Shown: piece by piece, positions 2,242 through 48,459 of the stretch
Layout of the letters: each line of letters opens with the position of its first letter
Numbering within the stretch: position 1 is the first letter of the stretch
Virus record (IMG/VR): IMGVR_UViG_3300044617_002200
Coordinates: 1 to 64,000 of that record
DNA length: 64,000 nt
Reading direction: 5' to 3' (one strand)
DNA from: a virus
Program-made: the position numbers and the translations under genes
Notes under the pieces: model-generated
Told to the model about the DNA's origin: nothing
Seen by the model: the letters and a program-made list of their open reading frames with translations, nothing else
The model's database searches: none

Positions 2242-5200
2242 TTACAAATATATTGTATTAGAGTCTTGATTTAATTTTAATATATCAAAGTTATCTATTA
2301 ACTCCTTTAAATTAAAAGAATTTGGAGAATATGGCGGCGGTTGCCATCCTGGAGGAGCGGTAGTCCCACCACCCTCTCCTAAGCAGCAACTATAAACAAC
2401 TTCATTACATTCATTCAATATTCTTACCCAAGTAACGCCTAAATGCGGGTTCGTATTTCCAGGCGAAGGAACTATAGAAATTGAAAACGATAGAGGTATT
2501 CCTGTATTAGAACCAGTATTAACTCCAGAAAAACCAAATAGAATAAAATTATCATCACTAGTTATAATTCTAGAACTATATCTATCATATTGACCATTAT
2601 ACGGGAATGGTCCTGGTCCATTATCTCTTGTTCCGGCATTATTCAACATCCCACTTAACACAGTATATCCACTGGGAGATAACTCTGTTTTCATTTTAAT
2701 GTCAAAGTCAGCTCTATTGCAAACGTGACCACCACCACAAGGATTATCTACCCCAACATTATCTCCACCAGGACCTTGACCCGAACCACTTGTAAAGATT
2801 AAGAAAGATCCAGATGCGTCATACCAACCGCTAATTAAATCATTCGGACCGCAAGGAACTGTTGGACCACCACCGCCTCCACCTCCAAGAGATTGCACAA
2901 CAATAGTTAATGTCCAAACTTCTTGTATGCCACCTCCATTTCCAGGACCCCCTCCACCATAAGTACCAGTAAATACAATTTTTGTTGTATAAGTACCAGG
3001 TGTTGTTGGCGTTCCAACAACTCTAGCAATGACAGAGTTATTAAGTCCAGCCACTGCTTCGTTGTTTATTGTAACTCCCGGACATACGTTTGGATCTTCT
3101 ATACAAACTGGTCCACTTGGAGGACAAAGTCCGCATGTTTTCAAAATAGCTCCGTTCGATATCGCTAAATTTTCAATAGCATATATTTTTTTTGTATAAT
3201 AATTAATACCCATTCTTCCTGCGGAAGAGTCTCTCGGCTCACAGCATCCGCCAGGATTAATTGCACAACTAATAGCACTAGTTAATGATACTTCTTCATT
3301 TTTATTTTTTAATTCAAATTGAGAATTATCATTTATAAGTTCAGAGACAGCTTCTTTAGATAGAAAAAATTCATTTCCATTAATTGATAAAGGATAATTT
3401 TTGCCAGATTTTGATCTAGCATATATAAAACAACGTTCTCCATCGTCGATTTTTATTGATGAAGTAGGATCTGGCTGAGGCACGATATGAAAGAAAAACC
3501 CACTACCACCGCTACCTATTGATCCAGATAATCCACTTTTTAAAATTGCTGTAGAAGGATTATAGCCAGCTGGAAGTGGAGCTTCTTCAAAAAATAACCA
3601 TTGCTTATTTGGTGTATGTCCAGGACCAGACTCATAAGTTAATTTAAAATCTATCGAATCAGGGCCTGGATTTATAATTCCACTTTCTAAAGAAATTCTG
3701 CAAGGAAAAGGCGGTTCATTAATAAATACAGATTCCGCATGAAAGGTATTAAATTCTAAAAGACCGTCTCCTACAAAACATGGAGGAAGTATTCTTTCGG
3801 GCGGATAGCAAACTGCATCGCTAGGATCACCCTGGTTATGCACATAAATAGTCTCCACTTTATAACCCACCAATCCCTGACCAACGACAGGAGTACAAAA
3901 AGGGTTGTCTCCAGAACATGCTAATCTGTTATTTATATTATCCCAATATTCCTGAGAACCAGTTGGGTATATATTATTATTAGCAGACCCGATACCCGCT
4001 TGATAAAAAGTAACACCATTGAAATCAAAATAATCACCTTTAAAATCTTTTGGAGCCACAACAATAGTTCCTTTTTTCATTGTGTCTACACCTAAAGGTC
4101 TACCATCCCATTGGCTAATATTCAAAGCTTTTTGGACATTATCAATTCTACAGGCATACCCTATAGCACGAGTTGAACTAATCGTACCAGCAAAAATCAA
4201 CCCGACTACTTTAAAGACAGAACCAAATTTTGCTAATAGAAAAGAACCTGAATCTCCTCCAGCAACTGCCATTCCTTGGCCATCTGCATAGTCTACCTCT
4301 ATAAGATCAGAATAATAAAGATCTACTGTTGAACCTTGTGATTGAACTTTTAAAGGACCAATACTAACAGTAACTCCAACTCTAGTTATTTTTAAACCAC
4401 AAGACTCGTTTTTAGGACCTGTTCTTGCTCCAGCACTGATAGCCACTGCATTCAAACAACTATTAATTTCTTGAGTTGTTGCAAATGGCACATTAGTAAC
4501 ATTGGCTGGTAAAATACCGAGTTGAAGATTAGATACTCCGCTCGTTAATAAAGAACTACTACCTAAGGTACATATAGCGGCATCCACAGTATTCATCACA
4601 TAACAAGTTGGAGTACTGGCGGCTGAAGGAGTATATTTTTTGGGACGACCGATAACCGCTGTTCCAGTTGTAACGACACTATTAGTTGAATCTTGAAGAA
4701 CAACTTGATCATAACCGCTAATAAAAGTTCCATTACTTGCCCATACATTCCCCTGTATAGTCCATCTTTGAACAGCAACGTTATCGTATATATTGTATAT
4801 TTCTTTAGCGAGGCTTCTATTGTGAGCGTAAGTATAATCTTTCACTATTACGTGAGCATTTGTTAACCCAACAACAGTGTTTGTATCATTATCTACGACT
4901 AAACCTCCCAAAGTACCTCCAAACCTATTAAATATTTGGTTTTGATTCGTTCCTCCGTTGCCGTCCAAGAAAGCGTTAGTATACATGTTCAAGACATGAA
5001 TACCACCTATCAAAGGCCTATGTGCCCTTCTATGTTCTGCTACGTTAAAAGGAGTAGGAGTAGCATCAAAATTATTGCAAGTAACTAAAAATTCGGCAAA
5101 CCCTCTTTCTACCACATCAGTTTTAAGCTTTTGTCCTTGTAAATAAACATATTCTGGAATTAAATCTCTGTCATCTATAACACTTAAGGGTCTTTTTTTA

Positions 5201-5355
5201 TGAACAAAATAAGTTAAACTCAATTCGTTCGTTTCGACCCCACTAACAATTTTATTACCAATACCAAATCCGTGAATATTAGGAGATGTTTCACGCATCA
5301 ACCCTGCGAACTCTTCGGTTAAACTTTCTCTGTCGTTTAATAAACTTATCTCCAT
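2242..5355 (-). CDS. Large trypsin-like protease with Ig-like C-terminal region
   Basis: This 1037-residue protein starts with a region (about 25-90) resembling the lead-in of the plant NAL1/bacterial trypsin-like family: GFGIGNKIVSG, then TYFVHKKRP and LKTDVVERG. A chymotrypsin-fold domain follows with H168 in GLTNAHV, D258 in NTVDAAI and S369 in GGDSGS, so the triad looks complete. The middle part is rich in Gly, Pro and Cys. Around 790-860 there is an Ig-like stretch (GTPTTPGTYTTKIVFTGTYG, then a TLTIVVQ strand), with a Gly-rich linker and a final beta-rich region. It lies among tail genes and is a paralogue of the protease at 1-1970, so it is probably a virion tail or fibre component that cuts host surface protein or matures a virion protein. 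No signal peptide is seen. Confidence 0.85.
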   Translation of the reverse strand: MEISLLNDRESLTEEFAGLMRETSPNIHGFGIGNKIVSGVETNELSLTYFVHKKRPLSVIDDRDLIPEYVYLQGQKLKTDVVERGFAEFLVTCNNFDATPTPFNVAEHRRAHRPLIGGIHVLNMYTNAFLDGNGGTNQNQIFNRFGGTLGGLVVDNDTNTVVGLTNAHVIVKDYTYAHNRSLAKEIYNIYDNVAVQRWTIQGNVWASNGTFISGYDQVVLQDSTNSVVTTGTAVIGRPKKYTPSAASTPTCYVMNTVDAAICTLGSSSLLTSGVSNLQLGILPANVTNVPFATTQEINSCLNAVAISAGARTGPKNESCGLKITRVGVTVSIGPLKVQSQGSTVDLYYSDLIEVDYADGQGMAVAGGDSGSFLLAKFGSVFKVVGLIFAGTISSTRAIGYACRIDNVQKALNISQWDGRPLGVDTMKKGTIVVAPKDFKGDYFDFNGVTFYQAGIGSANNNIYPTGSQEYWDNINNRLACSGDNPFCTPVVGQGLVGYKVETIYVHNQGDPSDAVCYPPERILPPCFVGDGLLEFNTFHAESVFINEPPFPCRISLESGIINPGPDSIDFKLTYESGPGHTPNKQWLFFEEAPLPAGYNPSTAILKSGLSGSIGSGGSGFFFHIVPQPDPTSSIKIDDGERCFIYARSKSGKNYPLSINGNEFFLSKEAVSELINDNSQFELKNKNEEVSLTSAISCAINPGGCCEPRDSSAGRMGINYYTKKIYAIENLAISNGAILKTCGLCPPSGPVCIEDPNVCPGVTINNEAVAGLNNSVIARVVGTPTTPGTYTTKIVFTGTYGGGGPGNGGGIQEVWTLTIVVQSLGGGGGGGPTVPCGPNDLISGWYDASGSFLIFTSGSGQGPGGDNVGVDNPCGGGHVCNRADFDIKMKTELSPSGYTVLSGMLNNAGTRDNGPGPFPYNGQYDRYSSRIITSDDNFILFGFSGVNTGSNTGIPLSFSISIVPSPGNTNPHLGVTWVRILNECNEVVYSCCLGEGGGTTAPPGWQPPPYSPNSFNLKELIDNFDILKLNQDSNTIYL

Positions 5356-5365
5356 ATAATTAATA

Positions 5366-5372
5366 ATTACAC
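5366..5372 (-). promoter_or_regulatory. GTGTAAT box upstream of large protease
   Basis: Minus-strand GTGTAATTATTAATTAT immediately precedes the ATG at 5355, in a gap of only 24 bases. It matches the recurring box. Confidence 0.5.
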
Positions 5373-5379
5373 CTCTTGT

Positions 5380-8300
5380 CTAAAAAAAACCTTGGTTTCC
5401 AATTGAAAAAAAACAGGTGGGTCTAAAAAATTGTATAGAATCATAAGTTTTTCTTGTATAAAAATTGTTTGATAATGGATTGTCATAGTCTGGAGGACGA
5501 GAATCATTAGAATTTTTATTTAGATAATTAAAATTACCAACTAATGCGTATCTATATAAAAGATTGCCGTAAATATTTCCGATTGCTAAAGAATCTAATT
5601 CGGAATTATTTTCTGAATCTATAAAACCTACAGTTACACCTTCTGCATAAATATCTAATTTTGTCCAACCATATCTTTTAATTCTTTTTACAGAACCATC
5701 TAAAGGAGTAGAGAAATTACGCAAGCCGTTGCCTCCTGCCCCATTGACTATATAATATATATTTTTTTTCTTTTCTAATAGTCGTTTTTCAAATCTCTCA
5801 TAATTTTTTGAAAAACCGTTAAAAATAATATCTGCAGAATTTAAATTCCATCCGTTTTCAGAATTTAAATCATAATATCCATAATTATACGATTCAGATG
5901 TAAATGGCGGATGATTAAATAACACAAATTTAAATGGATATTCTGAATTAGAAATTGCGTTATTAAACCACGTTTTTTGTATAGATCGATATGTTTCGTT
6001 ATGTTTACTAGACACTGATTCTCCTTTTCCAGCGCCTTCAGAAATAAGTCCACAACGAGAATTACCTCCTGTTATAGGATCGCTATCAAGTACAAAAAAA
6101 TGACAAGGCCCAATTTTAAGCTCGTAATACTTTCTACTATTAGAAGTATTTTTTATTAAATTATTTAATATTAAATTAAAATAACTTAAATATATATCTC
6201 CGAAACCATCTACTCCATCATAATCTTTTTCACCCAAAACAGGATAAAAATTTGAAACAGAAGTTGGAGAGACATCTTTAAACACAAACCTACAAGAATT
6301 AATACCCGTGGGTAAATAAATTTTTCCCTTTTCAATTATATCTATATCAGAAGATTTACGGTAATATTCTATAAATTCTCTATTTGGCTTTTTAACTTCT
6401 ATGGATAAAAAAGAAGGTTTATAATTTTCTAAAAATTCAATATAATAACCTGTCAAATAATTATTAAAAATATTATTTTTTTCATAACCTAAAAATATAT
6501 CTTCCTCTGCTCCATCTTTAGATAAAACGGCCATGTCGGTTAATTCATTTTTTGTAAAAGCTCTCCAAGCTAAAAAAGGGTTGTAATCTTTACTAAAAAT
6601 TACTTCTCCGTCGTTATTAGAGTAAGAATTTAAATTTGGAATAAAATCATTTACATTAGCAGGTAAGCTTATATCAATACTATCATATAAGTAAAAAGAA
6701 TCTATGTTCAATAAAGGAGCTGATCCAGAAACATAATTCTTATGAGGCCATTTTTTAGATTCATTAATTTCATACTGCAAATATTTAAATGGTTTGGGGT
6801 CATTAATTCTAAAATACTTCTTCGAAGAAGAATACCAATTATTATTCAATTCAGAATCTGAGTAAATCCTACTATCTAAAGTAACCCAGGTAGTTAAATT
6901 TTGAGAACCTTTTAAAGAAGTTGATAAAGGATAAAAAGAAGAATTATAATCAAGTCCTATTTCGTAATATTTCGCAACAGGAGAAACATTTAATTCATCT
7001 TTAAATTCAATTCTGATATATCCTGTCTGATTTTCAGAAGTCGTCCATGATTGAGAATCAGATATGTTTCTTAAATCTTTTTCTATAAATAAATTCTGAA
7101 CTAAATTAGTGTTTTCAGACGCAGTAATAGTTATATTAGAACCAGTTAAAGATTGCGGTATTACATGCCTTAGAAGCGTTCCTGTTGAACTTTCAGAAAA
7201 TATTAATTTATTTTTTAGATCTGCAACTCCAGATTCTCCAGAGTAAATAAAACCGCTTATATATTTATTTTCTACCAACACATATTTATCATATTCCTGA
7301 ATATTAGGAATATTAGGCACTCCCGAGGAAGGCGGACTCCAAAATCTTTCATCAAGATTAAAGCAATAAAAACCAGTATAAAAAATATTTTTATTAAAAA
7401 AACCGGTACCAATTCCGGTATTTACGACATCATTGTAAATACCACTCAAAGCAGTTACAGAAGAAAAATCAATGTTTCTACTTTTGAATATAAATTCTGA
7501 AGAACTAACTTCTTCTTCTTCTAAAGAAACTGCATTTATTTTTGTTCCGCTAGAAGGGAATCCCACTGCAAATCCCCCATAAAACGGCAAATCATATTCG
7601 TAATTTATATTACCGGTAGCATAAAAAAGTCTATTTTGAATTATATTATCAAAACTTCCTGTAGCAGGAACGCCATAGAAGTTTGAATTAGAACTTTTAC
7701 CATCGCCCTTTAAATTACCTGATAAATAATCAAAACCATAAACAAAACCACTAAAAGAACCGCTAGCGAAGCCGGTCGCTTCATAATAATCTAAAATTAC
7801 TTCTCCAGTATTACCATAAATAGGATAGACAGAAAAACTAACTGTCTCAGGTTTAGGTATTATAGATCTTAATTCGTAATTATAAAAGTAACCAGAAGTA
7901 TTATTATTATCTATAAAAGTTAATCCAGTGAAACCAGCTAAAAATTCCAAATAATAAATTGGATCTTTAGTAAATTGCATCTCAAAATCTTGAGAAATAT
8001 TGCCGAAATTAGTTCTTAAAAATAATCTTGGTCTAACAACTGTTCCAGCCAAGCCAGCCAATCTCCCTGTTCCAAAAATAAAATCTAAAATTATATTACC
8101 GCTAGATAAACCATTCACTAATTCTGGATATATTTCATTTTTAATTCCAAAAATACCACCAGCATTGAATAAATCTCCGGAAAAAATCTTAAAAGTTTTA
8201 TTTGATTCCTCTGATAGGTTTGAGATATAACCGGTAACATCTTGCCCTACAGGAATTTTATACGGAAAATTTATAGAATAAGAAGGTTTCAATCCTTGAA

Positions 8301-8661
8301 TAGTTAAATCGAAGTCAATTGGAGTTCTATCTGTTTCAATTAAAAAATTATTGTAATAATCACCTCGGAAAGGCGTATATAAACAAACTGGAGTACCCTG
8401 AATAAAATAATTTAAGAAATCATTTCCTAAATTTCCTGAAATAGAAATAATTTCATTAGGATTATAAGACCAAACATGGTTCTGGTCATAATCAAAAATT
8501 TTTCCACTCTCGAATTTAAATATAATAGTTTCTAATTCCGAATTTTTAGAAAAACCAATATTACTAATCCCGGTGACATTGCCAAATGAAGCTTCAAAAA
8601 GAAAAGTAAGCTCGTTACTTCCCGGTATGCTTCTATATAATACACCAGAATCTATTTGCAT
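5380..8661 (-). CDS. Giant tail protein with discoidin-like and degenerate phosphoesterase domains
   Basis: This is a 1093-residue protein. Residues about 550-640 resemble an F5/8 type C (discoidin) carbohydrate-binding module: LSTSLKGSQNLTTWVTLDSR, then KYFRIND and LQYEINE. Residues about 790-1000 follow the purple acid phosphatase/calcineurin order, with PVLGEKDYDG in place of PVLGNHDY, then FFVLDSD, FNHPPF in place of HRPPY, NGFSKNYER in place of SGHDHNYER, and YIVNGAGGNG. Several metal-binding Asn and His positions are therefore replaced and the domain is probably inactive. The first 500 residues are beta-rich, Gly/Tyr/Phe-rich tail-like sequence. It begins 2 bases after the hub candidate ends and belongs to the post-tape-measure tail set. 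A role in glycan binding at the tail tip is inference. Confidence 0.75.
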   Translation of the reverse strand: MQIDSGVLYRSIPGSNELTFLFEASFGNVTGISNIGFSKNSELETIIFKFESGKIFDYDQNHVWSYNPNEIISISGNLGNDFLNYFIQGTPVCLYTPFRGDYYNNFLIETDRTPIDFDLTIQGLKPSYSINFPYKIPVGQDVTGYISNLSEESNKTFKIFSGDLFNAGGIFGIKNEIYPELVNGLSSGNIILDFIFGTGRLAGLAGTVVRPRLFLRTNFGNISQDFEMQFTKDPIYYLEFLAGFTGLTFIDNNNTSGYFYNYELRSIIPKPETVSFSVYPIYGNTGEVILDYYEATGFASGSFSGFVYGFDYLSGNLKGDGKSSNSNFYGVPATGSFDNIIQNRLFYATGNINYEYDLPFYGGFAVGFPSSGTKINAVSLEEEEVSSSEFIFKSRNIDFSSVTALSGIYNDVVNTGIGTGFFNKNIFYTGFYCFNLDERFWSPPSSGVPNIPNIQEYDKYVLVENKYISGFIYSGESGVADLKNKLIFSESSTGTLLRHVIPQSLTGSNITITASENTNLVQNLFIEKDLRNISDSQSWTTSENQTGYIRIEFKDELNVSPVAKYYEIGLDYNSSFYPLSTSLKGSQNLTTWVTLDSRIYSDSELNNNWYSSSKKYFRINDPKPFKYLQYEINESKKWPHKNYVSGSAPLLNIDSFYLYDSIDISLPANVNDFIPNLNSYSNNDGEVIFSKDYNPFLAWRAFTKNELTDMAVLSKDGAEEDIFLGYEKNNIFNNYLTGYYIEFLENYKPSFLSIEVKKPNREFIEYYRKSSDIDIIEKGKIYLPTGINSCRFVFKDVSPTSVSNFYPVLGEKDYDGVDGFGDIYLSYFNLILNNLIKNTSNSRKYYELKIGPCHFFVLDSDPITGGNSRCGLISEGAGKGESVSSKHNETYRSIQKTWFNNAISNSEYPFKFVLFNHPPFTSESYNYGYYDLNSENGWNLNSADIIFNGFSKNYERFEKRLLEKKKNIYYIVNGAGGNGLRNFSTPLDGSVKRIKRYGWTKLDIYAEGVTVGFIDSENNSELDSLAIGNIYGNLLYRYALVGNFNYLNKNSNDSRPPDYDNPLSNNFYTRKTYDSIQFFRPTCFFSIGNQGFF

Positions 8662-8663
8662 TT

Positions 8664-11072
8664 TTAATAACCCACTCTTTTTATATCAGAAGAAACTTTC
8701 CTCAAAATGACTTCTGGGTTTGGCGGCTTTGGAGGCTTAGAGGCGAATTCGACACTAGTTTTAAAACCATCTTCTCCTAAAGAAATTTCCATTGAAGAAA
8801 GACCGCTAGAGGGAGATAAATCTAATCCATCTGGTTCTCCAGCAAAAATAAAAGAAGACCTCTCCATCGGAGAGGTAACAGAAGAAGCAACTGCAGTGGG
8901 TAAATCAGAGCGTTTCGCCCCCCAAGAATCAAATTCCGCATCAGTCATATTATCTATAGAAACATTTATTCTAGCAACGTCTTTTGCATTACCAACTGAT
9001 CCTGTAGAGTTAAGTATTTCTTTATTACTATCATCATTCAATAATTTTTGTATAGAACTAGTGAATCTTGTCACAAATTGATACTGACTTTTACTAGGGG
9101 CTAAAAATCTTATATTTGATTTCGCATCTTTTAAAGATATACTGATACCTTCTGCCATTTTTTGAACAAGCCCAGAAATAGGTTCTTTTGGGTCTTCGTT
9201 CTTTTCCGGTTGAAGCTTATCCATCAAATATTTTCTAGCCTCGTCTTCCGCAGATAAGCATGGTTTATTTTTAGAGTCTTCTATTGCGTCGCATTGTTTA
9301 GGGGCGTTTTGATTATATTCAGAAACATCGTCGATAGTGGATTCTAAATCATTTTGACCGCTAATGTATGTTACTTTTAAACCAAGATTTTTTTTGACAA
9401 AATCAGAATTCGGGTAAATAACTAAAGTGTTTACTTTTTTAGAAAGTTCTTTTGTTAAAAGCTCTGCTTCAATTAAATACCCTATTAAACCAGACTCGAC
9501 TAACTCAATGTGAATAGGACTACAAGCTCTTAACTCTCGAGTTAATTCAGATAAACCCAATTCTTCTAAAATAGAACTTGGATCATGAGAGAAAGTTCCA
9601 TTTCTTTCCAACAAATTGGATGCTGAAAATTCATCAGTTTGATCTTCTAAATAAGAGCCTTGAGGTTCTACGCTAACTTCAGATTGTACTAAAACATCGC
9701 TGTTACAAAAATAATAAGATCTATTCGTACCTGGGACTTTATAATGGCGACCGAAATTCGACATATTAGTTTTTTCAAGATCTCTCCATGTAGCTAAAAT
9801 TCCTTCGTCATGACTTACATATGCAGCAGTAAAACTAGGCAAACCCTCTTCATCTAGATCTTGCAAGGCTTGAATAGCTTCTTCATAACCGCCAGTTTTT
9901 ATTAAAAAATTTATAATTTTTTTAATATCTACGGTTTCGCCTTTATCAGTTATTTTGTAACCCATAATTCTCCACCATTTCTTTTCAAAAGCATAAATAT
10001 CTCTTAAAGAATCACTAATCAAACCTAACATCCCGCAAATTACAAACTCGCTTCGACTTCTTCCGTCTCCAAAAGTACCGCCCTCCGCGTCTAGTGATTT
10101 TCTTGTACCATTCTTATTTAAATAATAATTTAATGGATATGGATTAACAGAAGAAGTTACTATTTCTGAATACTCTCCATCTACAGCAGTAGGAGCTTCT
10201 TTTGGTTTTGCGCTATAAGAAATAGCAAATTGTCTATAAGTACCTTCCATAGAAGCACCTTCCGAAACAGAAATTAAATTAGAAGCATTAGACGATGGAA
10301 CGCTTGATATACCGGCAGAAGCTTCAAAAAATTTTAGACCGTTATTCCCTCCCGACGAATAATCCCAATAAAAATCATAACCAAAATCTGCGCACCAATT
10401 TTGTAAAACTTCTCTCAGCGTACCGGAATGAGTGGTTCTATATTTAGAATTTTTATCCGGCATATTTAAACTTATAGGACAAGCTTGTTTTAATTCTGAA
10501 AAATTATAATCAGTGGTCGGGATTTCACATTCTGAGTCTCTAAATTGTTCTGTACCTACCAATATAGCGCCTCCTTTAACGGCAGAGCCTTTTTTACATT
10601 TTCTTGTTATAGAGTGAGATCCTAAAGATCGCTCCATCCAATCTAAATAATACCCCCAAGAACCATTACTCTTCAAAATAGGAAGAATAGTTTTTTCTTT
10701 AGAAAAATCGAATTTTTTTGTTTTAGATATTTCAGATCCATTTACGCCCAATAAACCTCTTTTCCATAAAACAACATAATGTCTATCAAGTATAATACTA
10801 TTATCTATTATTTCAACTTCTAACAAAGATTGTTCTGCTGTTTTTGTAATATTATAAGACCAGACAATTCCATTAAAAGTAAAAGAACCCATTCTAACTG
10901 ATACGGCCTTATTTAGAGAACCAGAGCTTATATTATATGATCCAGAAGAACTAACTATGTTTAATGTTAAAACGCTAGGCTCAGCGGAATAGTTTGTTTT
11001 TAATGATAATCCATAAATCACTCCACCATAAGATGGACCACTAATATTTGGAATTTTTTGAAATGAAGACAT
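8664..11072 (-). CDS. Putative tail hub / tail-tip protein
   Basis: This 802-residue protein is read from an ATG preceded by AAAAGG and a GTGTAAA box. Its first 300 residues are beta-rich and contain TLREVLQNWCADFGYDFYWD, which resembles hub proteins of the gp27/Tal type, where a helix with a conserved aromatic packs in the second domain. The remainder holds alternating helices and an unusual number of Ser/Glu segments. It lies third after the tape measure, where siphoviruses encode distal tail and tail-associated proteins. No peptidase or lysozyme motif was found. Family membership rests on position and general pattern only. Confidence 0.5.
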   Translation of the reverse strand: MSSFQKIPNISGPSYGGVIYGLSLKTNYSAEPSVLTLNIVSSSGSYNISSGSLNKAVSVRMGSFTFNGIVWSYNITKTAEQSLLEVEIIDNSIILDRHYVVLWKRGLLGVNGSEISKTKKFDFSKEKTILPILKSNGSWGYYLDWMERSLGSHSITRKCKKGSAVKGGAILVGTEQFRDSECEIPTTDYNFSELKQACPISLNMPDKNSKYRTTHSGTLREVLQNWCADFGYDFYWDYSSGGNNGLKFFEASAGISSVPSSNASNLISVSEGASMEGTYRQFAISYSAKPKEAPTAVDGEYSEIVTSSVNPYPLNYYLNKNGTRKSLDAEGGTFGDGRSRSEFVICGMLGLISDSLRDIYAFEKKWWRIMGYKITDKGETVDIKKIINFLIKTGGYEEAIQALQDLDEEGLPSFTAAYVSHDEGILATWRDLEKTNMSNFGRHYKVPGTNRSYYFCNSDVLVQSEVSVEPQGSYLEDQTDEFSASNLLERNGTFSHDPSSILEELGLSELTRELRACSPIHIELVESGLIGYLIEAELLTKELSKKVNTLVIYPNSDFVKKNLGLKVTYISGQNDLESTIDDVSEYNQNAPKQCDAIEDSKNKPCLSAEDEARKYLMDKLQPEKNEDPKEPISGLVQKMAEGISISLKDAKSNIRFLAPSKSQYQFVTRFTSSIQKLLNDDSNKEILNSTGSVGNAKDVARINVSIDNMTDAEFDSWGAKRSDLPTAVASSVTSPMERSSFIFAGEPDGLDLSPSSGLSSMEISLGEDGFKTSVEFASKPPKPPNPEVILRKVSSDIKRVGY

Positions 11073-16293: not shown

Positions 16294-19200
16294 TTAAATT
16301 CTAGCTAAAGATGGAGGTACTTTTTTTCCTAAAGCTCTTTTTACATTATTTCCTATTTGATCATTTATCTCTGGAAGCATAGATAAAATAACCTCTCTTG
16401 GGTCTTGTTGAGCCGAAGTTATATTTAAATTTACAGGAGCATTTATATCCGCTTTTACATTAGAAGTCATGCCAGCAGCAAAATTAGGAACAAAATTACT
16501 CGCAGCACCAGTAAGCTTTTCTATAGCCGAATTTAAACTTTCTAACATAATTGAAATATTATTATTAGGAATATTATTTTCGGATAGACTATCAAAAGCG
16601 CTTACAATATTATTTAATCCAGAATCTAAATTAGAAAAATTCGGGACTCTTTTTTCAAAATTCATACCTGACATTTTTAAATTTTCTCCAGCATGGTCTC
16701 TAAAAGCTTGGGATAAAGAATTTTGCCCTTGTAATTTATTAAAGACTCCTAATCCAAGTGGATTTGTCGCACTTTTTAATAAACCAGAACTCCCTACTCT
16801 AACAGAATTCAATGCTTCACTGGGAGAAGCACCCATAGAAACCAAGCTAGCAACTTCTCTTTGAATTGAATCATTAAGAGGATTTTTTTCAAAAAAGTTA
16901 GGAATAAAACCTTTTGAGTAAGAATCAGTTTTTTTATGCGAGTTGTATACAGTTCTTAATTTCGAATACTGCTGTCTAGAATACATTGTTTTGTATTCCA
17001 TTAATTTTTTAGCAAGAGCCATTTTTTCTTCAGATGTTTTTGCGTTTTTTATAGCATCTTCATAAGCAGTATTTAATTCTAAAACTTCTGCTTTCGCCGT
17101 TTCATCAGAATAAGCGTTTTCTTTTTGAGTAGATTCTATTACCGATCTAACAGGGTCAGCATTTGAAGAAGTATCGCTTTTAGTATTTAATAAAGACGCA
17201 ACCTTTTCAGAAGGCTTTCTTTCCAAAACTGGCGCTTTTGACTCCTCTTCTTTTGGTAAAGGATTCGTTGCGTCTGGATCTAAAATCCCTGTAGATTTTT
17301 GACGAACCCTATCAGAAATTACCTGTGTAGCATACAAACCTTCTGTTAACCAACGCTTACCAGCAGGAGTTAATTTATACGAACTATCTTCCGAACCATA
17401 CTTTTCTAAAGTTTGTTTTAATGATTTAATTTTATTTCTAGCTTCGCTATAGCTTTTGTCCTGAAATTCACTTTTTTTAATTTCAGTTAAAGAATCTTGT
17501 ATATTTCTAATAAAAGAGGCCATTTCATCTTCAGAGAATTGTTCTGATGGGTAAAGTCCCTCTACAACAGATTTTGGTCTAGAAGTTTTTGTATCTATTT
17601 CTCCAACAGCTTTTTGCTTCATTCTCGATTGAGACTCTTTTATTTCGTTTAAAACCGTAGAAGAAAAATCGGCTATTTCTTTTGGTATTTGAGTACCACT
17701 ATACTCCTCAAGTTGTTTTTTAGCTAATTCATACTGTTTTCTTGCTTCCCCAACTTTTCCAGCATCTTCCGATCTGTTTGCATTTTCTATTATACGATAA
17801 ATATTTTCTGGTATTGTTGGTTTAGTTTTTTTAGTATCACTGCTAGAGCTAGGTTGAGAAACCGTATTTTTAGCAGAGGATACCGGTTTAGAAGCAGGAG
17901 TGGGAATAACAGAAGCAGGAGCGGGTTGGTTTTGATTTGCTGTAATTATCGCAGGCATTGCTGCATTATTATTGACAACTGACTCAGGATTTTCAGTAGT
18001 AGAAGAAGCAATATCTCTAACCGTTAAACCAGTATCTATAGCTGCAGAAATACCAGTTCCAATGCCAGGAAAACTTCCTGCTACTCCAGAAACAACTTCT
18101 AAACCTGCGCCTGCGAAATCACCCTCCATAGCACGCGAAATACCGAAACCAATACCAGCACCAATACCAATTATAGGTATCTTTTTTAATATGGCTTTTC
18201 CCAATCCTTTGCCCCCAGCTTTTCCAGCTGTTTTTGCTGCAGATTTTGTAGTAGCTTCAGCTGCTTCTTCTACAACTTTGCTAGTAGCTTTCGACGCCGC
18301 TTTATTTTGGAAAGCTTGCTCTACAGTTTTTTTTGCTAAATCATCTGAGTAACCTTTTGATTTCAACCAGTTATATAATTGGCTTTTTTGAGAAATACCT
18401 CCCGTTCTTCCTCTAGAACCTACTTTTCCAGGAGTGGTTGTATTTTTTTTATTTCTATCTAAAAACTCCAAAGCTTCTCTTTCTGCTTTTTTTATAGGGT
18501 CTTCTGGTTTAGGGGTCGGTACTTTTTTAGTCTCAGGTTTGGGTTTTTCCGCATCTGCGATACCCTTTTTAACGCTATCTGATTCAAGTTGTGATATTGG
18601 TTTATCAATAGGGGCAATTTTTTCTGGATTTATTTTTGCTAATTTTTTTCTAGCGACTGCCTGCTCTTCCGGAGTACCAAAATCAACCATTCTTTTTAAT
18701 TTATCTGCCTTAGTGTCCATTGACTGCTCTAAAGCAAGATTCTTATTTACTTTAGATACACCCTCTGCTTCTTGTATAGCTTTTTTGTATATTTCAGCTG
18801 GAGTGCTATTTGTTCCAGCCTGTTTATCCATCTCAAAAATCCCTTCTAAAAATGCGGCGGAGTCTTCTAATGTATTAAAAGTTCCTGACTCAACTAATTG
18901 ACGAATTGTTTTTTCAAATCCAGGATCTTTAGGAATCCTAGCAAAATTAGGTATAAGCCCTTTCGCAAAATTAAACGCTTTTTGCATATCCCTTGTAAGG
19001 ACTGCTGTTTTTCTCGTTCCTCCAAAATTTTTAATTAATTTCTCACCACTATTAATCATGGCGGGTTTTCCGTTAAGGTCATTTAAAAAAACAGGATAAT
19101 CTGAAGGCAATGCCCCACCAATGCCTTTATTAATAGCAGAAGTTTCATTTTTAAATGCAGGTATATACCCTGACGCTTTGTTTTTAACTGGGCCTTTAGG

Positions 19201-22200
19201 TGGAGAATATGGTTGTAAATTATTTTCAGATCCTGCTCTTTGAGACATTATTTGAGCTAAAGAAATAATAGATTTATCTATATTTTGAAGAACTCCAAAT
19301 TGCTGAGTCTGTATTTGAGTTTGAAGTGACGCTTGATTTACTAGCGGATCATCAGATATAGATAAACCGGATTTTATTGCTTCTGCAACTTGTAAATTTA
19401 TTTTTTCTATTTGACCGATAGAGTTTTTATAAATTTTACTGAAAATTGAGTTAAAAACAGAGCTATCTATTTGACCAGTAGCTTGTCCCATTTGTAAAGC
19501 GGCGATCTCTTTGGGATTGAATTGTTTTAAAGCATCAACAAAAGATCTATACTCTTGTCTAACATCATCTGGTAAAATAGCTCTTCCAGTATTCTGTCTA
19601 GAAATAGCATCATCCCGCAAGGCTTTTTCAAATTCTTTTATTTTATTTGAAATATCTTGAGTCAATCCCGCCATGGCTTTTTGGTAAGAATCAGATTGTG
19701 GATCTACCTCATATAGGCCTCCCGATAATGTTTGCAATGTCTTTATAAGAGATAAATAATTTCTTCCCAAATCAGGAATATCTGCAACTCTAGCATTTAC
19801 AGATTCTTTATTGTTATATCTAAAAGCACTTTTAGATTCTATGCCTTTGATTTCATTTACAAATGAATCTAAAGATTTTAAAGGGGTTATTTCATTACCA
19901 AATTCGTCTTTTTGAGGAGATAAAAAACTTTCAGCACCTCCAAAAATACCAGTCGCCGATTGAAGTGTTTTTAAAACTAAATTTTGAGTAGCTCTATCAG
20001 CTAAACTTTTGTTAGCAAGTTTTTCTTGTTGGTTAATGCTGATTAATTCATTATTTGTTTTTTCAGCCAATATTTCAATATTTGTTAAAATTGAGTTTAC
20101 ATTTTCTACACCAGCAGAAATCAAATAAGTTTTTAAACCTCTAAGTAAATTTTGAGTATCTATTTGTTCTCCTAAAGCTTTTCCAAGCAAAGTGTTAGAA
20201 TTTTTAAAACTTGATTCTAATTTCAAGTTCTGACTTTCTAACTGAAGACGGTTAGTACTAATTTGTTTGGGAGATAAATTTTCACCCGAAGCCTGGTCTA
20301 TTATTTTTTTTCTAACATCTTCAAAAGCAGACCCTAATAAAGTTGAGACTTGATTTTGAAAATCAAGATTTCTATTTTGAATAGAATTAATTCTATCATT
20401 GCTATTTTTTAATATATCTTCCGCAATCTGGTATTGAGTTGCAATTCTAGAACCCTCGCCAGTTATTTGAGAAGCAGCCTCTCTTTTATTAGAAAAATTC
20501 TGTTCAATTATTCTATTTTGACTAAATTGTTGTAAAGCTAATTTAGATTGTTCTATACTAGAAATATAAGCTTGTGTTATTTCAATATTTTTTCGAATAG
20601 AATCTTTTGTTTTTTCTAATAATTGATTTTCAAAAGCCCTGCTCTTAGATAAATTTCGAATAGAATCATCATAATTTTTTTGAGCTGTAATAGAATCTTC
20701 AAAAGATTTTTTAGAATTATCTAATCCAGCAGCAAAAGTTTTTACGATTACAGATAAAGAGTCGAAAGGTATTGTTGCTAATTCGTTTTTTAAACTTCTA
20801 ACTTCTTCTGTGTCTGGCAATCCAGAAGCAAAAGCTTCCGCGAAATCTTGCGATGAATTAATATTCGAACTAAATCCTTGCCCACCACCAACAGCGTTAA
20901 TCTTACCAAGACCAGACCTCTCATCTAATCCTTGAAAAAATATTGATTGCAATGTTTTATTTAATTTTTCTAATTCTTTAGAATCATTTTCTAATAATCC
21001 TGATCCGAATAAACCGCCACTCACATTTCTAATATTAGCGTTTGATCTCTCCTGCCCAAGTATTTTTCCTACATCCTGTAAATTAGAAGTAAATTCAGTT
21101 ACAACTTGTTTATTTTGAAGTATTTTAGCTATTTTTTCTCTAGCTTCAGATAAACTTTTGGAACTTAGAATTGATTTTTTTTCTTCTTCTGAAACACCAT
21201 TCAAAGATTCATTTAAAGCTTTTCTAGCTTTATTTACAGTATCTAAATCAGCGCCATCTTCAAGAAGTTTTTGGTAATTTTCAGATGCAGTTAAAAATTT
21301 AGAAGAACTGTCGGAAAAATTCTGAAGACTTTCTCTTGATTTTTCTGCTGCTGAAGAGAGTTCTGGAAAATTAGAATTTAATTCATCTAATAATGGGCCT
21401 AGCGATAATAAACCACCAGCCACACCGCCTACAGCGGCTCCGATAGGTCCTCCTACTAAAAATCCCGCTCCTGCAAAAGATGCGGTTTGCCCGAGAGCAC
21501 TTACAGCTGCACCAGTTCTTCTATCTTCTGGATTATTTCTACCTATAGAATTAGCAATTGTTTCAGCTATAATAGGAGCTGAAGTTAAACCTAATGCGCC
21601 ACCAGAAGACAAGCCAGCTTTAATTCCAGCTCCAGAAAAAATTCTTTTAAAAGTCCCTGCCACACCGGAAGACCCGGCTATTTTTTCTAACTTCCCTAAA
21701 GAAGTTTCTGATTTAGATATTTGAGCTTCAAGTTTTCTGAATTGTTTACTATTCTTATCTAGAGAGGATAACTCTTCTTTTCTTATCGAAATAGAAGACC
21801 TTATTTTGTCGATTTCAGAATTAAACTCAGAATTAAAACTTCTAAATCCAATCGAAAGTAAAGCTAACTGAGTTAAAACAGCACCTATAGATCCAAAATC
21901 AGCCTGCTCTGCAAAGTTAGGAATATATCCAGTAGACTTGCTTTTTACAGCTTTATTTTCTTTTGATTTAGTCCCCTCGTCTCTACTATTAAAAACGCCC
22001 AAACCAAAAGGGTTAGATTTTGATACTAAATCTTTATTATTAGCTACATAAATTTTATTATTTGGTAATCCTGACTCATTAGTCTCTCTAATTATAGCAT
22101 CTTTTAAGGCATTTGAAAAATTTGGAATAAAACCTTTAGAGCGCGACTTCATTTTTGGAACTCTAAAAATATTCTCTTTCAATCCTTTGCGTATAACATC

Positions 22201-24681
22201 AGGAGCTAAAGACTCGGAAATTTTTGCTTCATAGTCCCCAGGTGTATTATTAAATAATGACCTTAATTCTTGGTTTGGGTTAATAAAATCTATAACAGCA
22301 CTAGCCCCGCCCTCTCTAGATGATTGAGCCATAACGGAATTAGTTCCTTTTGTGACAGCTGTTTCAAATACAGTTCCAGCTATACTAGGAAGCGAACCAA
22401 GATTTGATAATTCCGAAACATCTTTAATTCTTGCTAGCGAAGATTTATTTCCAAAAAAACTTACATAGCGATTTGTATAATCAACAATATAATCGCCAAT
22501 TCCTCTAGCAAGATCCTGATCTTCTGGCTCGATAGCTTCTTTTGGATTAAATCCACTTGAATTAAAACGCGCTTTATATATTTGCCCTCTTGCCCCAAAT
22601 TGCCCGTCTTTATCTTTCCAAGAAGCCTCTATTTTCTTATAAGAATTCGTTTGTTTACCATAGATTAGACTTAATCTATCTGTAGAGCCCAAGTCGATTG
22701 GAGGCGAGGCAACTTTATTATCCTGAGTTTTACCAATTTGATATTTTAACTGACTTAATCTTTGTTTTTCTTGATCAGTGAGGGTTTTCTTTCTTTCTAA
22801 ATTATAAAGTTCAGTTTTTGGATTTACAGCAAAATTAGGTATATAACCCAAAGCCATTGAGAGTCCCTTTTGCATTTCGCGAGTAAGAATTGCCGTTTCT
22901 TTGCTTCCTCCAAAATTTTCTACAAGCCTCTCTCCTGTATTTATTACAGTTGGTTCTCCATTTATATTGAATGGGCCAATTGGTTTATCACTAGGCTTTG
23001 CGCCCCCAACTCTTTTCTGTATATCTTTTTGTTCTTTTTTAAAAGCAGGTATATAACCATCCGCCCTAGTTTTAGGAGTCGGTGCGTTAGGAATTCCCTC
23101 TGAAACTCTTACGCCTCTATTAAATAATTGAGAAGCAATTTTAGCCGTTAATATATCCTGTTTTTGTAATTCAGTTGTTTGTGCTCTTAAACTAGCCAAT
23201 AGTTGTTCAGTTGCCTTAGCTACACCCTGAGTACCTTGCTGCATTAACTGAAGCAACTGTGGATTTTGACTAAGAATACTCGTTATACTTTTTTGTAAAT
23301 CAGCTTGTTGTTTCGCAGCATTATTTAGACCCAGAAGTTCCTTAGAACTGCCTATTGCAAATTTAGAAAAATCCTTAAATAATTTAGCAAGAACACCTCC
23401 TATTAAAGCAATTCCTGGACCAGCTAATATTTTACCTATACCGTCTAAAATACCAGTACCTAGTTTAGCGCCGAATCCTTCACTATCTACATTGTTTAAA
23501 TTTTCTAATATCAAATTACCCCCGCCTACCACTCTTTCAAACGATGGTCCAATTACTCTTTCCCCTGCTGCAGCAGCTAATTGCACAGCATTCTCTCTTA
23601 AAGCATTCAATTGAGCTGCGTAGGTTTTATTTAATTCTTCATTTCTTCTTATAGCTTGATCAGTTGTCGATTCAGCAACTTTTAAAGCATTATTATATAT
23701 AGAAAATTCTTTACCTAAATCTGCAAGAGCAGACTTCAAAATATTTATTTGGAACACTCCGCCAACTTTTTCAGCAACTTCCGCCTGCTGAAGCGTACCT
23801 AACTTATCATAAACCGACCCTAAGTCTTGGAGTAATGCTATTGTTGATTTCAATTGACCTGTTCCATCTGTAGTCGAAATCCCCAATCCTTCTAAAAGGT
23901 CTACTACTTTTGTTCTTTGTAATCTTGTAAAAATAGTTTTAAAGGAGTTACCAATAACAGCTCCACCTCTAGCCGTAGTTTGTTGAGCGGCTGTAACAAT
24001 TGCGATTAATTCATTTAAACTAACTCCTGATTGAGCAGCGCTGCTACCTACACGGCTAATAGCGTCAGCTAAATCAGCTGAACTCACCGCGAAAGCTGCG
24101 TCAACATTTGCGAATTTATTGACTATTTCAGTTGCAGTTACGGCTTCTGAGGCGAAAGAATTTACTGCTGCTGTTAAAGCCTCGACGCTTTTAGCAGCAT
24201 CTAGACCGCTCAATCTAGACAATATTAAAGCTTCATTTGTTCTTTTTAAAGTTTCTGATATCCCTAAACCCTGTCTTGAAAATTCCGTAGCAGCTTTTGC
24301 TACAGCTTCAAAAGATTGACCCGTATTTTTAGCAATATTAAATAAATCTGCTCCAAATTTATTTAATTCAGTAGATGATGCATTTAAAATTACATTTATA
24401 TCTTGTAAAGATTTTTGAACTTCAATAGTAGATGAGACTAAAGATTGAAAAGCTTTCTCAATACCAAAAATAATACCCGCACTTGCGCCGAAGGCTATAA
24501 CTCTTGCGTTAGAAGCATCTAATGATTTGTTAAATTCATTAATTTTTCCAGTTATACGACCCAAAGGCTGCTCGCCTTTAGTTTTTAAGTCAATTTCAAA
24601 AACCTTATTAACGCTTTTTCGTATATCACGATCTAAGCGTTTTGTATTCCCACCAATATCTAAATCAATTGAAGCTGGCAT
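16294..24681 (-). CDS. Tail tape measure protein
   Basis: At 2795 residues this is the largest gene in the window. Residues about 45-400 match the TP901-type tape measure core: VIAFGASAGIIFGIEKAF, the Ala/Ser-rich helix AVNSFASEAVTATEIVNKFA, and TTARGGAVIGNSFKTIFTRL. Long helices follow, with two Gly/Ala-rich hydrophobic stretches (about 1070-1110 and 2140-2200) that could insert in a membrane during DNA entry. A short motif, GYIPNFA or GFIPNFS, recurs at about eight places, and a 78-residue block is duplicated (541-618 and 1837-1914). Start: AAAAAGG before the ATG and a GTGTAAA box upstream. At roughly 1.5 angstroms per residue an extended protein would set a tail near 400 nm. Confidence 0.95.
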   Translation of the reverse strand: MPASIDLDIGGNTKRLDRDIRKSVNKVFEIDLKTKGEQPLGRITGKINEFNKSLDASNARVIAFGASAGIIFGIEKAFQSLVSSTIEVQKSLQDINVILNASSTELNKFGADLFNIAKNTGQSFEAVAKAATEFSRQGLGISETLKRTNEALILSRLSGLDAAKSVEALTAAVNSFASEAVTATEIVNKFANVDAAFAVSSADLADAISRVGSSAAQSGVSLNELIAIVTAAQQTTARGGAVIGNSFKTIFTRLQRTKVVDLLEGLGISTTDGTGQLKSTIALLQDLGSVYDKLGTLQQAEVAEKVGGVFQINILKSALADLGKEFSIYNNALKVAESTTDQAIRRNEELNKTYAAQLNALRENAVQLAAAAGERVIGPSFERVVGGGNLILENLNNVDSEGFGAKLGTGILDGIGKILAGPGIALIGGVLAKLFKDFSKFAIGSSKELLGLNNAAKQQADLQKSITSILSQNPQLLQLMQQGTQGVAKATEQLLASLRAQTTELQKQDILTAKIASQLFNRGVRVSEGIPNAPTPKTRADGYIPAFKKEQKDIQKRVGGAKPSDKPIGPFNINGEPTVINTGERLVENFGGSKETAILTREMQKGLSMALGYIPNFAVNPKTELYNLERKKTLTDQEKQRLSQLKYQIGKTQDNKVASPPIDLGSTDRLSLIYGKQTNSYKKIEASWKDKDGQFGARGQIYKARFNSSGFNPKEAIEPEDQDLARGIGDYIVDYTNRYVSFFGNKSSLARIKDVSELSNLGSLPSIAGTVFETAVTKGTNSVMAQSSREGGASAVIDFINPNQELRSLFNNTPGDYEAKISESLAPDVIRKGLKENIFRVPKMKSRSKGFIPNFSNALKDAIIRETNESGLPNNKIYVANNKDLVSKSNPFGLGVFNSRDEGTKSKENKAVKSKSTGYIPNFAEQADFGSIGAVLTQLALLSIGFRSFNSEFNSEIDKIRSSISIRKEELSSLDKNSKQFRKLEAQISKSETSLGKLEKIAGSSGVAGTFKRIFSGAGIKAGLSSGGALGLTSAPIIAETIANSIGRNNPEDRRTGAAVSALGQTASFAGAGFLVGGPIGAAVGGVAGGLLSLGPLLDELNSNFPELSSAAEKSRESLQNFSDSSSKFLTASENYQKLLEDGADLDTVNKARKALNESLNGVSEEEKKSILSSKSLSEAREKIAKILQNKQVVTEFTSNLQDVGKILGQERSNANIRNVSGGLFGSGLLENDSKELEKLNKTLQSIFFQGLDERSGLGKINAVGGGQGFSSNINSSQDFAEAFASGLPDTEEVRSLKNELATIPFDSLSVIVKTFAAGLDNSKKSFEDSITAQKNYDDSIRNLSKSRAFENQLLEKTKDSIRKNIEITQAYISSIEQSKLALQQFSQNRIIEQNFSNKREAASQITGEGSRIATQYQIAEDILKNSNDRINSIQNRNLDFQNQVSTLLGSAFEDVRKKIIDQASGENLSPKQISTNRLQLESQNLKLESSFKNSNTLLGKALGEQIDTQNLLRGLKTYLISAGVENVNSILTNIEILAEKTNNELISINQQEKLANKSLADRATQNLVLKTLQSATGIFGGAESFLSPQKDEFGNEITPLKSLDSFVNEIKGIESKSAFRYNNKESVNARVADIPDLGRNYLSLIKTLQTLSGGLYEVDPQSDSYQKAMAGLTQDISNKIKEFEKALRDDAISRQNTGRAILPDDVRQEYRSFVDALKQFNPKEIAALQMGQATGQIDSSVFNSIFSKIYKNSIGQIEKINLQVAEAIKSGLSISDDPLVNQASLQTQIQTQQFGVLQNIDKSIISLAQIMSQRAGSENNLQPYSPPKGPVKNKASGYIPAFKNETSAINKGIGGALPSDYPVFLNDLNGKPAMINSGEKLIKNFGGTRKTAVLTRDMQKAFNFAKGLIPNFARIPKDPGFEKTIRQLVESGTFNTLEDSAAFLEGIFEMDKQAGTNSTPAEIYKKAIQEAEGVSKVNKNLALEQSMDTKADKLKRMVDFGTPEEQAVARKKLAKINPEKIAPIDKPISQLESDSVKKGIADAEKPKPETKKVPTPKPEDPIKKAEREALEFLDRNKKNTTTPGKVGSRGRTGGISQKSQLYNWLKSKGYSDDLAKKTVEQAFQNKAASKATSKVVEEAAEATTKSAAKTAGKAGGKGLGKAILKKIPIIGIGAGIGFGISRAMEGDFAGAGLEVVSGVAGSFPGIGTGISAAIDTGLTVRDIASSTTENPESVVNNNAAMPAIITANQNQPAPASVIPTPASKPVSSAKNTVSQPSSSSDTKKTKPTIPENIYRIIENANRSEDAGKVGEARKQYELAKKQLEEYSGTQIPKEIADFSSTVLNEIKESQSRMKQKAVGEIDTKTSRPKSVVEGLYPSEQFSEDEMASFIRNIQDSLTEIKKSEFQDKSYSEARNKIKSLKQTLEKYGSEDSSYKLTPAGKRWLTEGLYATQVISDRVRQKSTGILDPDATNPLPKEEESKAPVLERKPSEKVASLLNTKSDTSSNADPVRSVIESTQKENAYSDETAKAEVLELNTAYEDAIKNAKTSEEKMALAKKLMEYKTMYSRQQYSKLRTVYNSHKKTDSYSKGFIPNFFEKNPLNDSIQREVASLVSMGASPSEALNSVRVGSSGLLKSATNPLGLGVFNKLQGQNSLSQAFRDHAGENLKMSGMNFEKRVPNFSNLDSGLNNIVSAFDSLSENNIPNNNISIMLESLNSAIEKLTGAASNFVPNFAAGMTSNVKADINAPVNLNITSAQQDPREVILSMLPEINDQIGNNVKRALGKKVPPSLARI
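18940..19173 (-). repeat. 78-residue tape measure block, copy 2
   Basis: This segment encodes residues 1837-1914. It aligns without gaps to the block at 22828-23061, with about 44 of 78 residues identical by hand count. It starts SGYIPAFK and ends IPNFA. Confidence 0.85.
22828..23061 (-). repeat. 78-residue tape measure block, copy 1
   Basis: This segment encodes residues 541-618, with exactly the same length as the copy at 18940-19173. It starts DGYIPAFK, contains NFGG and LTREMQK, and ends GYIPNFA. The two copies are about 1300 residues apart. Confidence 0.85.
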
Positions 24682-41467: not shown

Positions 41468-43369
41468 TTACAGAAGCTCAGCTATAAAAGTAGTATTTTT
41501 TTTAACAAAATTTTCTGGGTCTACAATATCAAAATATATCTTTAACCCCCAATTACTTAACATCAACGTGGTATAATTATCTTTTCTTGCTCTATTTATG
41601 CTAGTAGACCTTTTAAGATGATAAGGCAAATCAAAGCTCTGAGTTCCTCTAGAAGTAGTAGTAACTTCAATGTTTGCGCATTGTTCTTTCGTATCTTTTA
41701 TTATAAAGTCCTGTTCTTCTATAAATTCTCTAACAGTCAATTTTTTTGTTTCATATTCGGTGTCTGCTTTATCTCCTATACCTCTAGGACAAATATCTGA
41801 CATCGGTAAGTTCATTGAAAAAACATTTTCTAAAATGTCGGGGTGACAGCTAGCACGAGATGCAAACCATATTTTTTTATGGTCTATACATGTTTGAAGA
41901 TAAGAGTTTGCTCTAGATAAAAAAGCAGAAGTAAAATATTGTTTCACACATATTGAACCAAAGTCTCTGTTATATTGAGACGCGCAATTTTTTACCATTT
42001 TTACGTAATCTTCATTTTCTTTATCTGAATCAAAATCTATAAAACCTATTTTTTTATTAATTTTTTTAAAAAATTCTGAATTATTTACTGCATCTATAAA
42101 AGTGTCTGCTCCGGCATGATCAATAATAACTAACGCTATATTAAAATGTTTATATAAATAATAAAAATATTTAATATGATCTTGCAATGAAGCTCCCGCT
42201 ACTTGGTAACCATGAACTACGACTCCTTGTTTTTTTTCCTCATCTATTTCAACAACACTCATCGCAAAATAATCTGCTGTTTTAGAAGCAGAAAAATTAG
42301 GGTCTATTCCTAAAATATATTTTTTGTCACTATCACCGACTATTTTCGTTGTAGGGTATTCTCCATCTGGTATAGTACACAAATGCATTTTTTGAGGAGA
42401 AAAATAACTATCCCCACCATCAATGAATCTAGCGCAATATTCTCTTAAAAATGAATGATGAGAACTTCCCCCGCTTTTAGCTACTTGAATTGCAGCTTGG
42501 TCTACCATATGAGAAGGTAAGGCCTCGTAACTCAATTGTGAAATAAAATAAGTTCCCGGCAATTCTCCATCTTTAGCTGTTTGAACGTCAGGATTTTCAA
42601 TTAAATGCGACCATTTTTGATAAACATTAAATAAATGCTCGAAAGTATAACTAGCGGAACTCAAAGCTAACATTTGAGAAGTGTTTTCAAAAATTTGACG
42701 ATTATCAGGATGTAGTAATCCTTTTTGAATTAATTCCTCTTCAAGTCTTCTAATTCGGATTCTTTCTCCAACATCACGAGGGGAACTTAAAAATGGAATC
42801 AATACATTATCAATAATATCTGCTGGTAATAATAAAAACTCATCCAGAATCAGAACATTAGCTCTGATACCTCTAATTTTTTCTCCAGTCAATGGAATTG
42901 CTGTTATGCTACCCCCATTTATCTGCCATTCATATTGATCATTCCTCTTACTTTTTAAACCAAAACATTGCATAGCTAACCGGGCGACAGATGAACTCAA
43001 GAATTTTTCTATTTCATTAAAAACTCTACGGCTAGTTCTAAAATTTACAGAAGCTATTAATATTTTAGTTCCTGGTTCAAATATACATTTCAATATGCAA
43101 TAAATGGCCGCACAAAAACTTTTAGCGCACCCTCTTCCCCATATCAGCATACAATAATTCTTATTAAAAAAAGAATTAAGAGTTAGTTCTTGATATGATT
43201 CTAACGTCAAACCTAATATTAAATCAGTCGTAAAGCCTAGATTATATCTCAAAAACTTCGCTAAAGAAATTCGAGCGTCCATATCAGAAAGCTCTCCTTT
43301 AAGAGACAGGAGTTCTTTATTTACATTCTTTATATTTTTTTTATTTTGATTACCTATTATTAAACTCAT
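41468..43369 (-). CDS. terL: Terminase large subunit
   Basis: This 633-residue protein has an ATPase half with Walker A GRGCAKS (78-84) and Walker B VLILDEF (172-178, D176/E177), and a nuclease half whose first acidic residue is D356 in LGIDPNFS, with D417 in VIIDHAG as the second. This layout is typical of phage DNA-packaging motors that cut and translocate the genome into the prohead. It overlaps the upstream nuclease gene by 20 bases and precedes the portal. The Walker A sequence has Cys-Ala in place of the more common Gly-Lys arrangement, but the lysine is kept. Full length. Confidence 0.95.
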   Translation of the reverse strand: MSLIIGNQNKKNIKNVNKELLSLKGELSDMDARISLAKFLRYNLGFTTDLILGLTLESYQELTLNSFFNKNYCMLIWGRGCAKSFCAAIYCILKCIFEPGTKILIASVNFRTSRRVFNEIEKFLSSSVARLAMQCFGLKSKRNDQYEWQINGGSITAIPLTGEKIRGIRANVLILDEFLLLPADIIDNVLIPFLSSPRDVGERIRIRRLEEELIQKGLLHPDNRQIFENTSQMLALSSASYTFEHLFNVYQKWSHLIENPDVQTAKDGELPGTYFISQLSYEALPSHMVDQAAIQVAKSGGSSHHSFLREYCARFIDGGDSYFSPQKMHLCTIPDGEYPTTKIVGDSDKKYILGIDPNFSASKTADYFAMSVVEIDEEKKQGVVVHGYQVAGASLQDHIKYFYYLYKHFNIALVIIDHAGADTFIDAVNNSEFFKKINKKIGFIDFDSDKENEDYVKMVKNCASQYNRDFGSICVKQYFTSAFLSRANSYLQTCIDHKKIWFASRASCHPDILENVFSMNLPMSDICPRGIGDKADTEYETKKLTVREFIEEQDFIIKDTKEQCANIEVTTTSRGTQSFDLPYHLKRSTSINRARKDNYTTLMLSNWGLKIYFDIVDPENFVKKNTTFIAELL

Positions 43370-48417: not shown

Positions 48418-48459
48418 AAAAAAACGCGCTTATCCTTAATAGAGGTAAGCGCGTTTTTA
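48418..48459. terminator. Bidirectional intrinsic terminator
   Basis: A GC-rich stem ACGCGCTTA with TAAGCGCGT (48424-48454) has a run of A on its left and a run of T on its right, so it can end the plus-strand heat-shock transcript and the minus-strand PhoD transcript. It overlaps the PhoD stop codon. Confidence 0.88.

Follow-up and report, generated by a model that had tools for sequence, protein, structure and literature searches.

Genomic context and domain layout

The window analyzed here is a 64,000-nucleotide stretch of viral DNA, part of an 83-kb IMG/VR record (IMGVR_UViG_3300044617_002200), and its tape-measure gene (16294-24681) and terminase gene (41468-43369) mark its source as a tailed phage. 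Within it, the modular tail protein P0001 was compared with proteins of the same locus in other records, above all with P0009 of a related uncultured phage (L092; IMGVR_UViG_3300047561_001492). The coordinates and strand of the P0001 ORF were confirmed, and its reading frame is open end to end. Features of the locus are given below, with amino acid (aa) positions referring to P0001.

8664..11072 (-): P0002, the upstream neighbor, a conserved tail-region protein of 802 aa that serves as synteny anchor (35-42% identity in three relatives)
5380..8661 (-): P0001, modular tail protein ORF of 1093 aa, stop codon included, starting 2 bases past the P0002 stop codon
7402..8661 (-): N-terminal part, aa 1-420, conserved across relatives (tblastn-type matches of 32-35% identity in G003, G004, G028 and G026)
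6757..7128 (-): discoidin (F5/8 type C)-like domain, aa 512-635 (PF00754, below gathering)
6274..6600 (-): putative second beta-rich domain, aa 688-796, common to L101, L102 and L103 at 33-35% identity
5605..6267 (-): second half of a purple acid phosphatase (PAP), with motifs 3-5 and the NGxGG strand, aa 799-1019, which comes first (PAP profile positions 76-256; VIA-align to pig PAP 77-302)
6223..6234 (-): motif 3, GEKD, aa 810 (canonical GNHD)
5905..5919 (-): motif 4, FNHPP, aa 915 (canonical FHHPP), ligand His retained
5794..5817 (-): motif 5, GFSKNYER, aa 949 (canonical GHEHNYER), both ligand His gone
5731..5745 (-): NGAGG turn, aa 973, still present
5383..5595 (-): likely decayed PAP first half (beta1-alpha1-beta2, motifs 1-2), aa 1023-1093, which comes last (alignment to the first half in L092)
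5527..5541 (-): putative motif 1 remnant, VGNFN (canonical IGDYG; L092 ADWG)
5383..5403 (-): putative motif 2 remnant, IGNQGFF (canonical LGDNNY; L092 IGNLNY)

A preliminary description of this DNA had called P0001 a tail protein, and its setting among tail genes, with P0002 upstream and the tape-measure gene on the same stretch, supports that view. The description had also placed a discoidin-like region ahead of the phosphatase. Such a region exists at aa ~512-635 (F5_F8_type_C, E = 0.001), where PF00754 also matches two of four homologues. Its 19.6 bits fall short of the Pfam gathering score (28.2), and we regard it as a real but weak resemblance, discoidin-like only. It does not adjoin the phosphatase: the domain at aa ~688-796, which has no match among PDB sequences or in Pfam, lies in between.

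P0001 terminates at motif 2 (SIGNQGFF*), and an alpha segment retained in L092 is missing. Shortening of the protein by a frameshift was considered and rejected, as inspection by eye showed that the other frames close soon after a T8 run. The next gene downstream begins at 5355. This tail gene (2242-5355, minus strand) has an N-terminal chymotrypsin-like serine protease region (TNAHV, GDSGS) and matches phrog_20754 'protease' at 9e-21, making it a candidate virion protease. The tape measure protein (minus strand, 2795 aa) additionally hits PHROGs of peptidases and endolysins at aa ~2065-2225, and two large minus-strand proteins (36652-39504 and 55405-58206) with matches to BppL_N, the N-terminal domain of a lower baseplate protein, are likely further adhesins.

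Relatives and exchangeable C-termini

Relatives of P0001 were found neither in INPHARED by tblastn nor in IMG/VR with patterns drawn from P0001 alone, and motif-pattern scans of IMG/VR returned either nothing or L092 only. The terminase has 80 close relatives in IMG/VR, and a search with P0001 over 48 of these records recovered the N-terminal part in six and, in G026, the phosphatase part as well, whose best segment is 46% identical. In relatives, including L090, L091, L092 and L102, the P0001-type gene invariably follows a P0002 homologue, while its C-terminus takes the following forms.

L090, L091: discoidin-like pair and poly-Ser
L102: discoidin-like pair and FG-GAP repeats
L094: DUF4214-like domain (by eye) and BNR/sortilin-like repeats
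L092: FG-GAP repeats with a phosphatase inside
Window (P0001): discoidin-like pair and phosphatase

Because these domains vary between phages at one locus, the C-terminus can be considered a swappable module, and P0001 is presumably a variable tail-tip or fiber-like contact protein located in the virion. Very long poly-serine tracts link tail-protein domains in this phage clade, as in L091 (2617-5913, more than 100 Ser), L090, L094, L102 and the window (48457-49887).

Ancestry and predicted fold of the C-terminal domain

The C-terminal ~295 aa of P0001 are, with near certainty, PAP-derived, as the preliminary description had proposed. A 266-position profile, built from ten canonical bacterial PAPs of the L108 phylum, matches aa 799-1019 at 90.3 bits, and a five-sequence family profile picks up plant and mammalian PAP structures among PDB sequences with E values down to 6e-12. 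Metallophos_C (E = 4e-4; 21.3 bits, below the cut-off of 23) was the sole match to P0001 in the Pfam scan, and a PHROGs search with the protein gave no match. The four quoted motifs, GEKD, FNHPP, GFSKNYER and NGAGG, were all located (aa 810, 915, 949 and 973). A turn of the NGxGG type is typical of PAPs.

PhoD-like Pfam PF09423 does not match P0001; the PhoD of this phage is a separate gene (48457-49887, minus strand), whose GDMHY, DDHD and GDMHALA motifs look intact and which finds its closest homologues among phages, at 36-40% identity, in those of Dolichospermum, Nostoc and Anabaena.

AlphaFold2 was run on aa 798-1093 with a five-sequence alignment and returned a model with a pLDDT of 52.7 and a pTM of 0.62. 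In a Foldseek search with this model the first nine matches were all PAPs (best E 4.7e-5). VIA-align superposed the low-confidence model on pig PAP with a Z of 9.7 over 174 residues at 3.6 A, model residues 1-232 of 296 (model pLDDT 53) falling on PAP residues 77-302. PAPs are therefore the best match of a low-confidence model, which does not refute the four-layer alpha-beta-beta-alpha phosphoesterase fold; because confidence in the model is low, assignment of the PAP fold depends chiefly on sequence similarity. The corresponding domain model for L092 (pLDDT 41) was too poor for a structure search.

Probable circular permutation of the phosphatase domain

The arrangement of the domain is clearest in L092, where P0009 (1689 aa; ORF 2664-7733, minus strand) matches the PAP profile twice, with model positions 74-201 at aa 747-912 (81 bits) followed by positions 22-75 at aa 1131-1193 (13 bits). 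The two matches are exact complements in reversed order, present in one copy each, with no further significant copy in the 1689 aa. A first-half profile alone scores 19.5 bits at aa 1131-1192 (best of ~200 decoys, 6.7), and this separate profile found nothing significant upstream of the second half. The first half, ..SFATIADWG..YVFGIGNLNY..AIDENVGSFYFDYLPCYRGVYSG, lines up well with the canonical ..RFAAIGDYG..FIITLGDNNY..TIDSNIGQFYHDYIYPYNGNFG. The GDHD, FHHP and GHEHIYER motifs are intact, the motif order is 3-4-5-1-2, and the break falls in the loop directly ahead of the motif 3 strand, while the bacterial L108 and the phage L120 proteins show the canonical, unpermuted order. From these alignments we conclude that the PAP of L092 is very probably circularly permuted. 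Origin of the order as a contig artefact was rejected, as the window copy, from a separate record, has what is likely the same order at 39% domain identity; both PAPs occupy the same locus. The P0009 domain also carries a ~95-aa insert behind motif 5, and it lies between repeats 4 and 5 of seven FG-GAP-type repeats recognized by eye, three of which are confirmed by Pfam. In L092 the D of motif 2 is replaced by N and the N of motif 3 by D; this reciprocal exchange might preserve the metal charge.

Motif order was the point on which the preliminary description needed revision: motifs 3-5 follow the PAP order, but motifs 1-2 are absent upstream, and what appears to be a decayed copy of them comes after motif 5. 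The window tail (aa 1023-1093) aligns to the L092 first half with a local score of 69, compared with a mean of 33.5 (sd 6.5, maximum 67) over 5000 shuffles, and phmmer gives 7.6 bits for the same comparison (at most 6.2 in 500 shuffles). In the window model this terminal unit forms a strand-helix-strand (pLDDT about 55-70), and the VIA-align match begins past the first half of the enzyme, at PAP residue 77, as permutation predicts. Since the canonical first-half PAP profile does not match aa 1023-1093, the case for the window rests on L092. It is likely that the PAP halves stand in swapped order in the window copy too, the first half being partly eroded and weakly recognizable. This copy and that of L092 are the two permuted copies found.

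The silence of canonical first-half profiles over aa 1023-1093 and the low overall pLDDT would also fit a window protein that carries the motifs 3-5 half alone, with an incomplete fold and some 70 unrelated, degenerate leftover residues at its end. We consider this unlikely: that tail aligns to the L092 first half and is predicted to fold as a strand-helix-strand, L092 carries both complementary halves in this order, and P0001 stops exactly at motif 2.

Loss of the metal site

Nine site residues were scored (D of motif 1, D and Y of motif 2, N and H of motif 3, the HH pair of motif 4, and both H of motif 5) and compared with 40 other residues that are invariant in bacterial PAPs. Site residues are retained at 1/9 in the window copy, 7/9 in L092, 9/9 in the intact phage PAP L120 and 0/9 in L121, against 26/40, 22/40, 29/40 and 30/40, respectively, of the non-site invariant residues. 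With residues treated as independent, which they are not fully, Fisher's test of site against other residues gives p = 0.007 for the window copy, or p = 0.07 when second-half sites alone are used; under the same imperfect assumption of independence, the unpermuted L121 (0/9 vs 30/40) gives p = 4e-5. On these values, selective erosion of the site within a conserved framework is significant for the window copy and strong for L121. Substitutions in the window copy are D to N in motif 1, D to N and Y to F in motif 2, N to E and H to K in motif 3, and H to F and H to K in motif 5; the single retained ligand is a motif 4 His. Lysines K812 and K952 now occupy the catalytic-His position (GEKD) and one ligand-His position (GFSKNYER).

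The loss of metal ligands and the retention of FNHPP and NGAGG that the preliminary description reported were both recovered, and its suggestion to look for intact motifs among relatives is answered by the nearby L092, where motifs 3-5 are intact. With the two-metal site lost, the window domain is predicted to be unable to hydrolyze phosphoesters, and on the residues observed it is very likely to be catalytically inactive.

L121 (4677-6098, plus strand, of IMGVR_UViG_3300045286_000131) has a canonical-order PAP next to structural genes, including tail genes, in a phage that carries an integrase, and is a second, independent PAP that its sequence predicts to be dead. When bacterial genomes were searched with the pair alignment, one canonical PAP, L108, was recovered. 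MT837099, a 7.7-kb fecal 'phage' record containing a PAP, was excluded as apparently bacterial.

Neutral decay would make the window domain a functionless passenger in the process of being lost, with the relatives that lack it as the end state. The domain is indeed wholly missing from relatives, and near-identical copies for measuring selection were not found. This explanation seems improbable, though, given that 26 of the 40 non-site invariant residues persist while the site is erased, that the frame is open throughout, and that an unrelated phage (L121) has the same pattern. Least probable is that the domain has kept enzymatic activity as a modified phosphoesterase with a single metal, working through E811 and H917 (plus Asn) on the host surface at entry: the retained motif 4 His, the E at the motif 3 Asn position, the 7/9 site residues of L092 and an apparently intact PhoD-like phosphatase in the same phage, which implies that virion phosphatases suit its lifestyle, speak for it, but substitutions have removed the bridging Asp, the Asp of motif 1, the Tyr and the two His of motif 5, and Lys stands at the catalytic-His and ligand-His positions.

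Proposed role in the virion

We favor, as reasonably probable overall, the explanation that P0001 ends in a circularly permuted PAP that is no longer catalytic and now serves the virion as a contact module. The PAP would have been permuted in an ancestor common to the window phage and the related phage, leaving the motifs 3-4-5 half ahead of the motifs 1-2 half. Loss of the two-metal site would then have followed in the window copy, with the fold retained as one of several exchangeable C-terminal modules, which the tail protein would present to the host surface. Reuse as a binding scaffold is plausible because C-terminal modules are swapped between phages and an independently dead PAP (L121) lies in a tail neighborhood. 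A contact or binding role for the domain is accordingly somewhat favored, although it may alternatively serve as a pure structural spacer. The dead pocket, evolved for phosphate groups and perhaps now lined by the two Lys, could bind an anionic group and leave it uncleaved; the partner would probably be either the surface of the host or an anionic polymer, for instance one rich in phosphate.

A broader and more tentative proposal is that the calcineurin-like/PAP fold underwent natural circular permutation within tail proteins of phages and that the site was then remodeled stepwise into a phosphate- or anion-binding receptor module. The permuted domain would have been inserted into an FG-GAP propeller (L092) or appended behind discoidin-like domains (window), and remodeling of the site would have followed, through the exchange of D and N between motifs 2 and 3 of L092 and complete loss in the window copy.

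Comparison with known systems

A natural circular permutant of the PAP / calcineurin-like superfamily was not found in the open-access literature, which by itself does not prove novelty. The closest report was a 2007 survey (PMC2213659) that tallies structural alignments of non-sequential type for the metallo-dependent phosphatase fold and, in the passage concerned, names no permuted family; internal symmetry of the fold may lie behind these alignments and might also make the fold tolerant of permutation. If the permutation is real, standard domain searches see half of such domains and label them truncated, and more may therefore be hidden.

Phosphoesterase-fold genes occur in other tailed phages, as in the window: Rowlf gp26 (PMC12352085) has a reported PAP match, its function being called unknown there, and Dolichospermum, Nostoc and Streptomyces phages have PhoD-like genes, which are annotated as enzymes, unlike the window PAP with its predicted inactivity. 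Among the phage PAPs compared here, that of L092 shares its locus and, probably, its permuted order with the window copy, and differs in its intact motifs 3-5 and its position between FG-GAP repeats. L121 resembles the window copy in being predicted dead with fold residues retained and in lying beside tail genes, but it is unpermuted and keeps 0/9 rather than 1/9 site residues. These phage proteins would form a graded series, from intact (L120) through permuted with most ligands (L092) and permuted and dead (window) to unpermuted and dead (L121), that could be used to test the evolution of an enzyme into an adhesin.

Compared with PAPs generally (PF00149 / PF14008; pig 5UQ6/7OV8, kidney bean 1KBP/4DHL, lupin 3ZK4), the window domain has a similar second-half sequence and motif framework, retains the NGxGG turn and is predicted, at low confidence, to fold alike, but its halves appear swapped, its ligands are lost, and it lies within a phage tail protein. 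A PAP fold serving as a membrane anchor is known from GAP50 of the Plasmodium glideosome (reviewed in PMC8949495), whose structure (3TGH) is the fourth-best VIA match to the window model (Z 9.4). Unlike the window domain, GAP50 is eukaryotic, keeps the canonical order and was earlier reported as an acid phosphatase.
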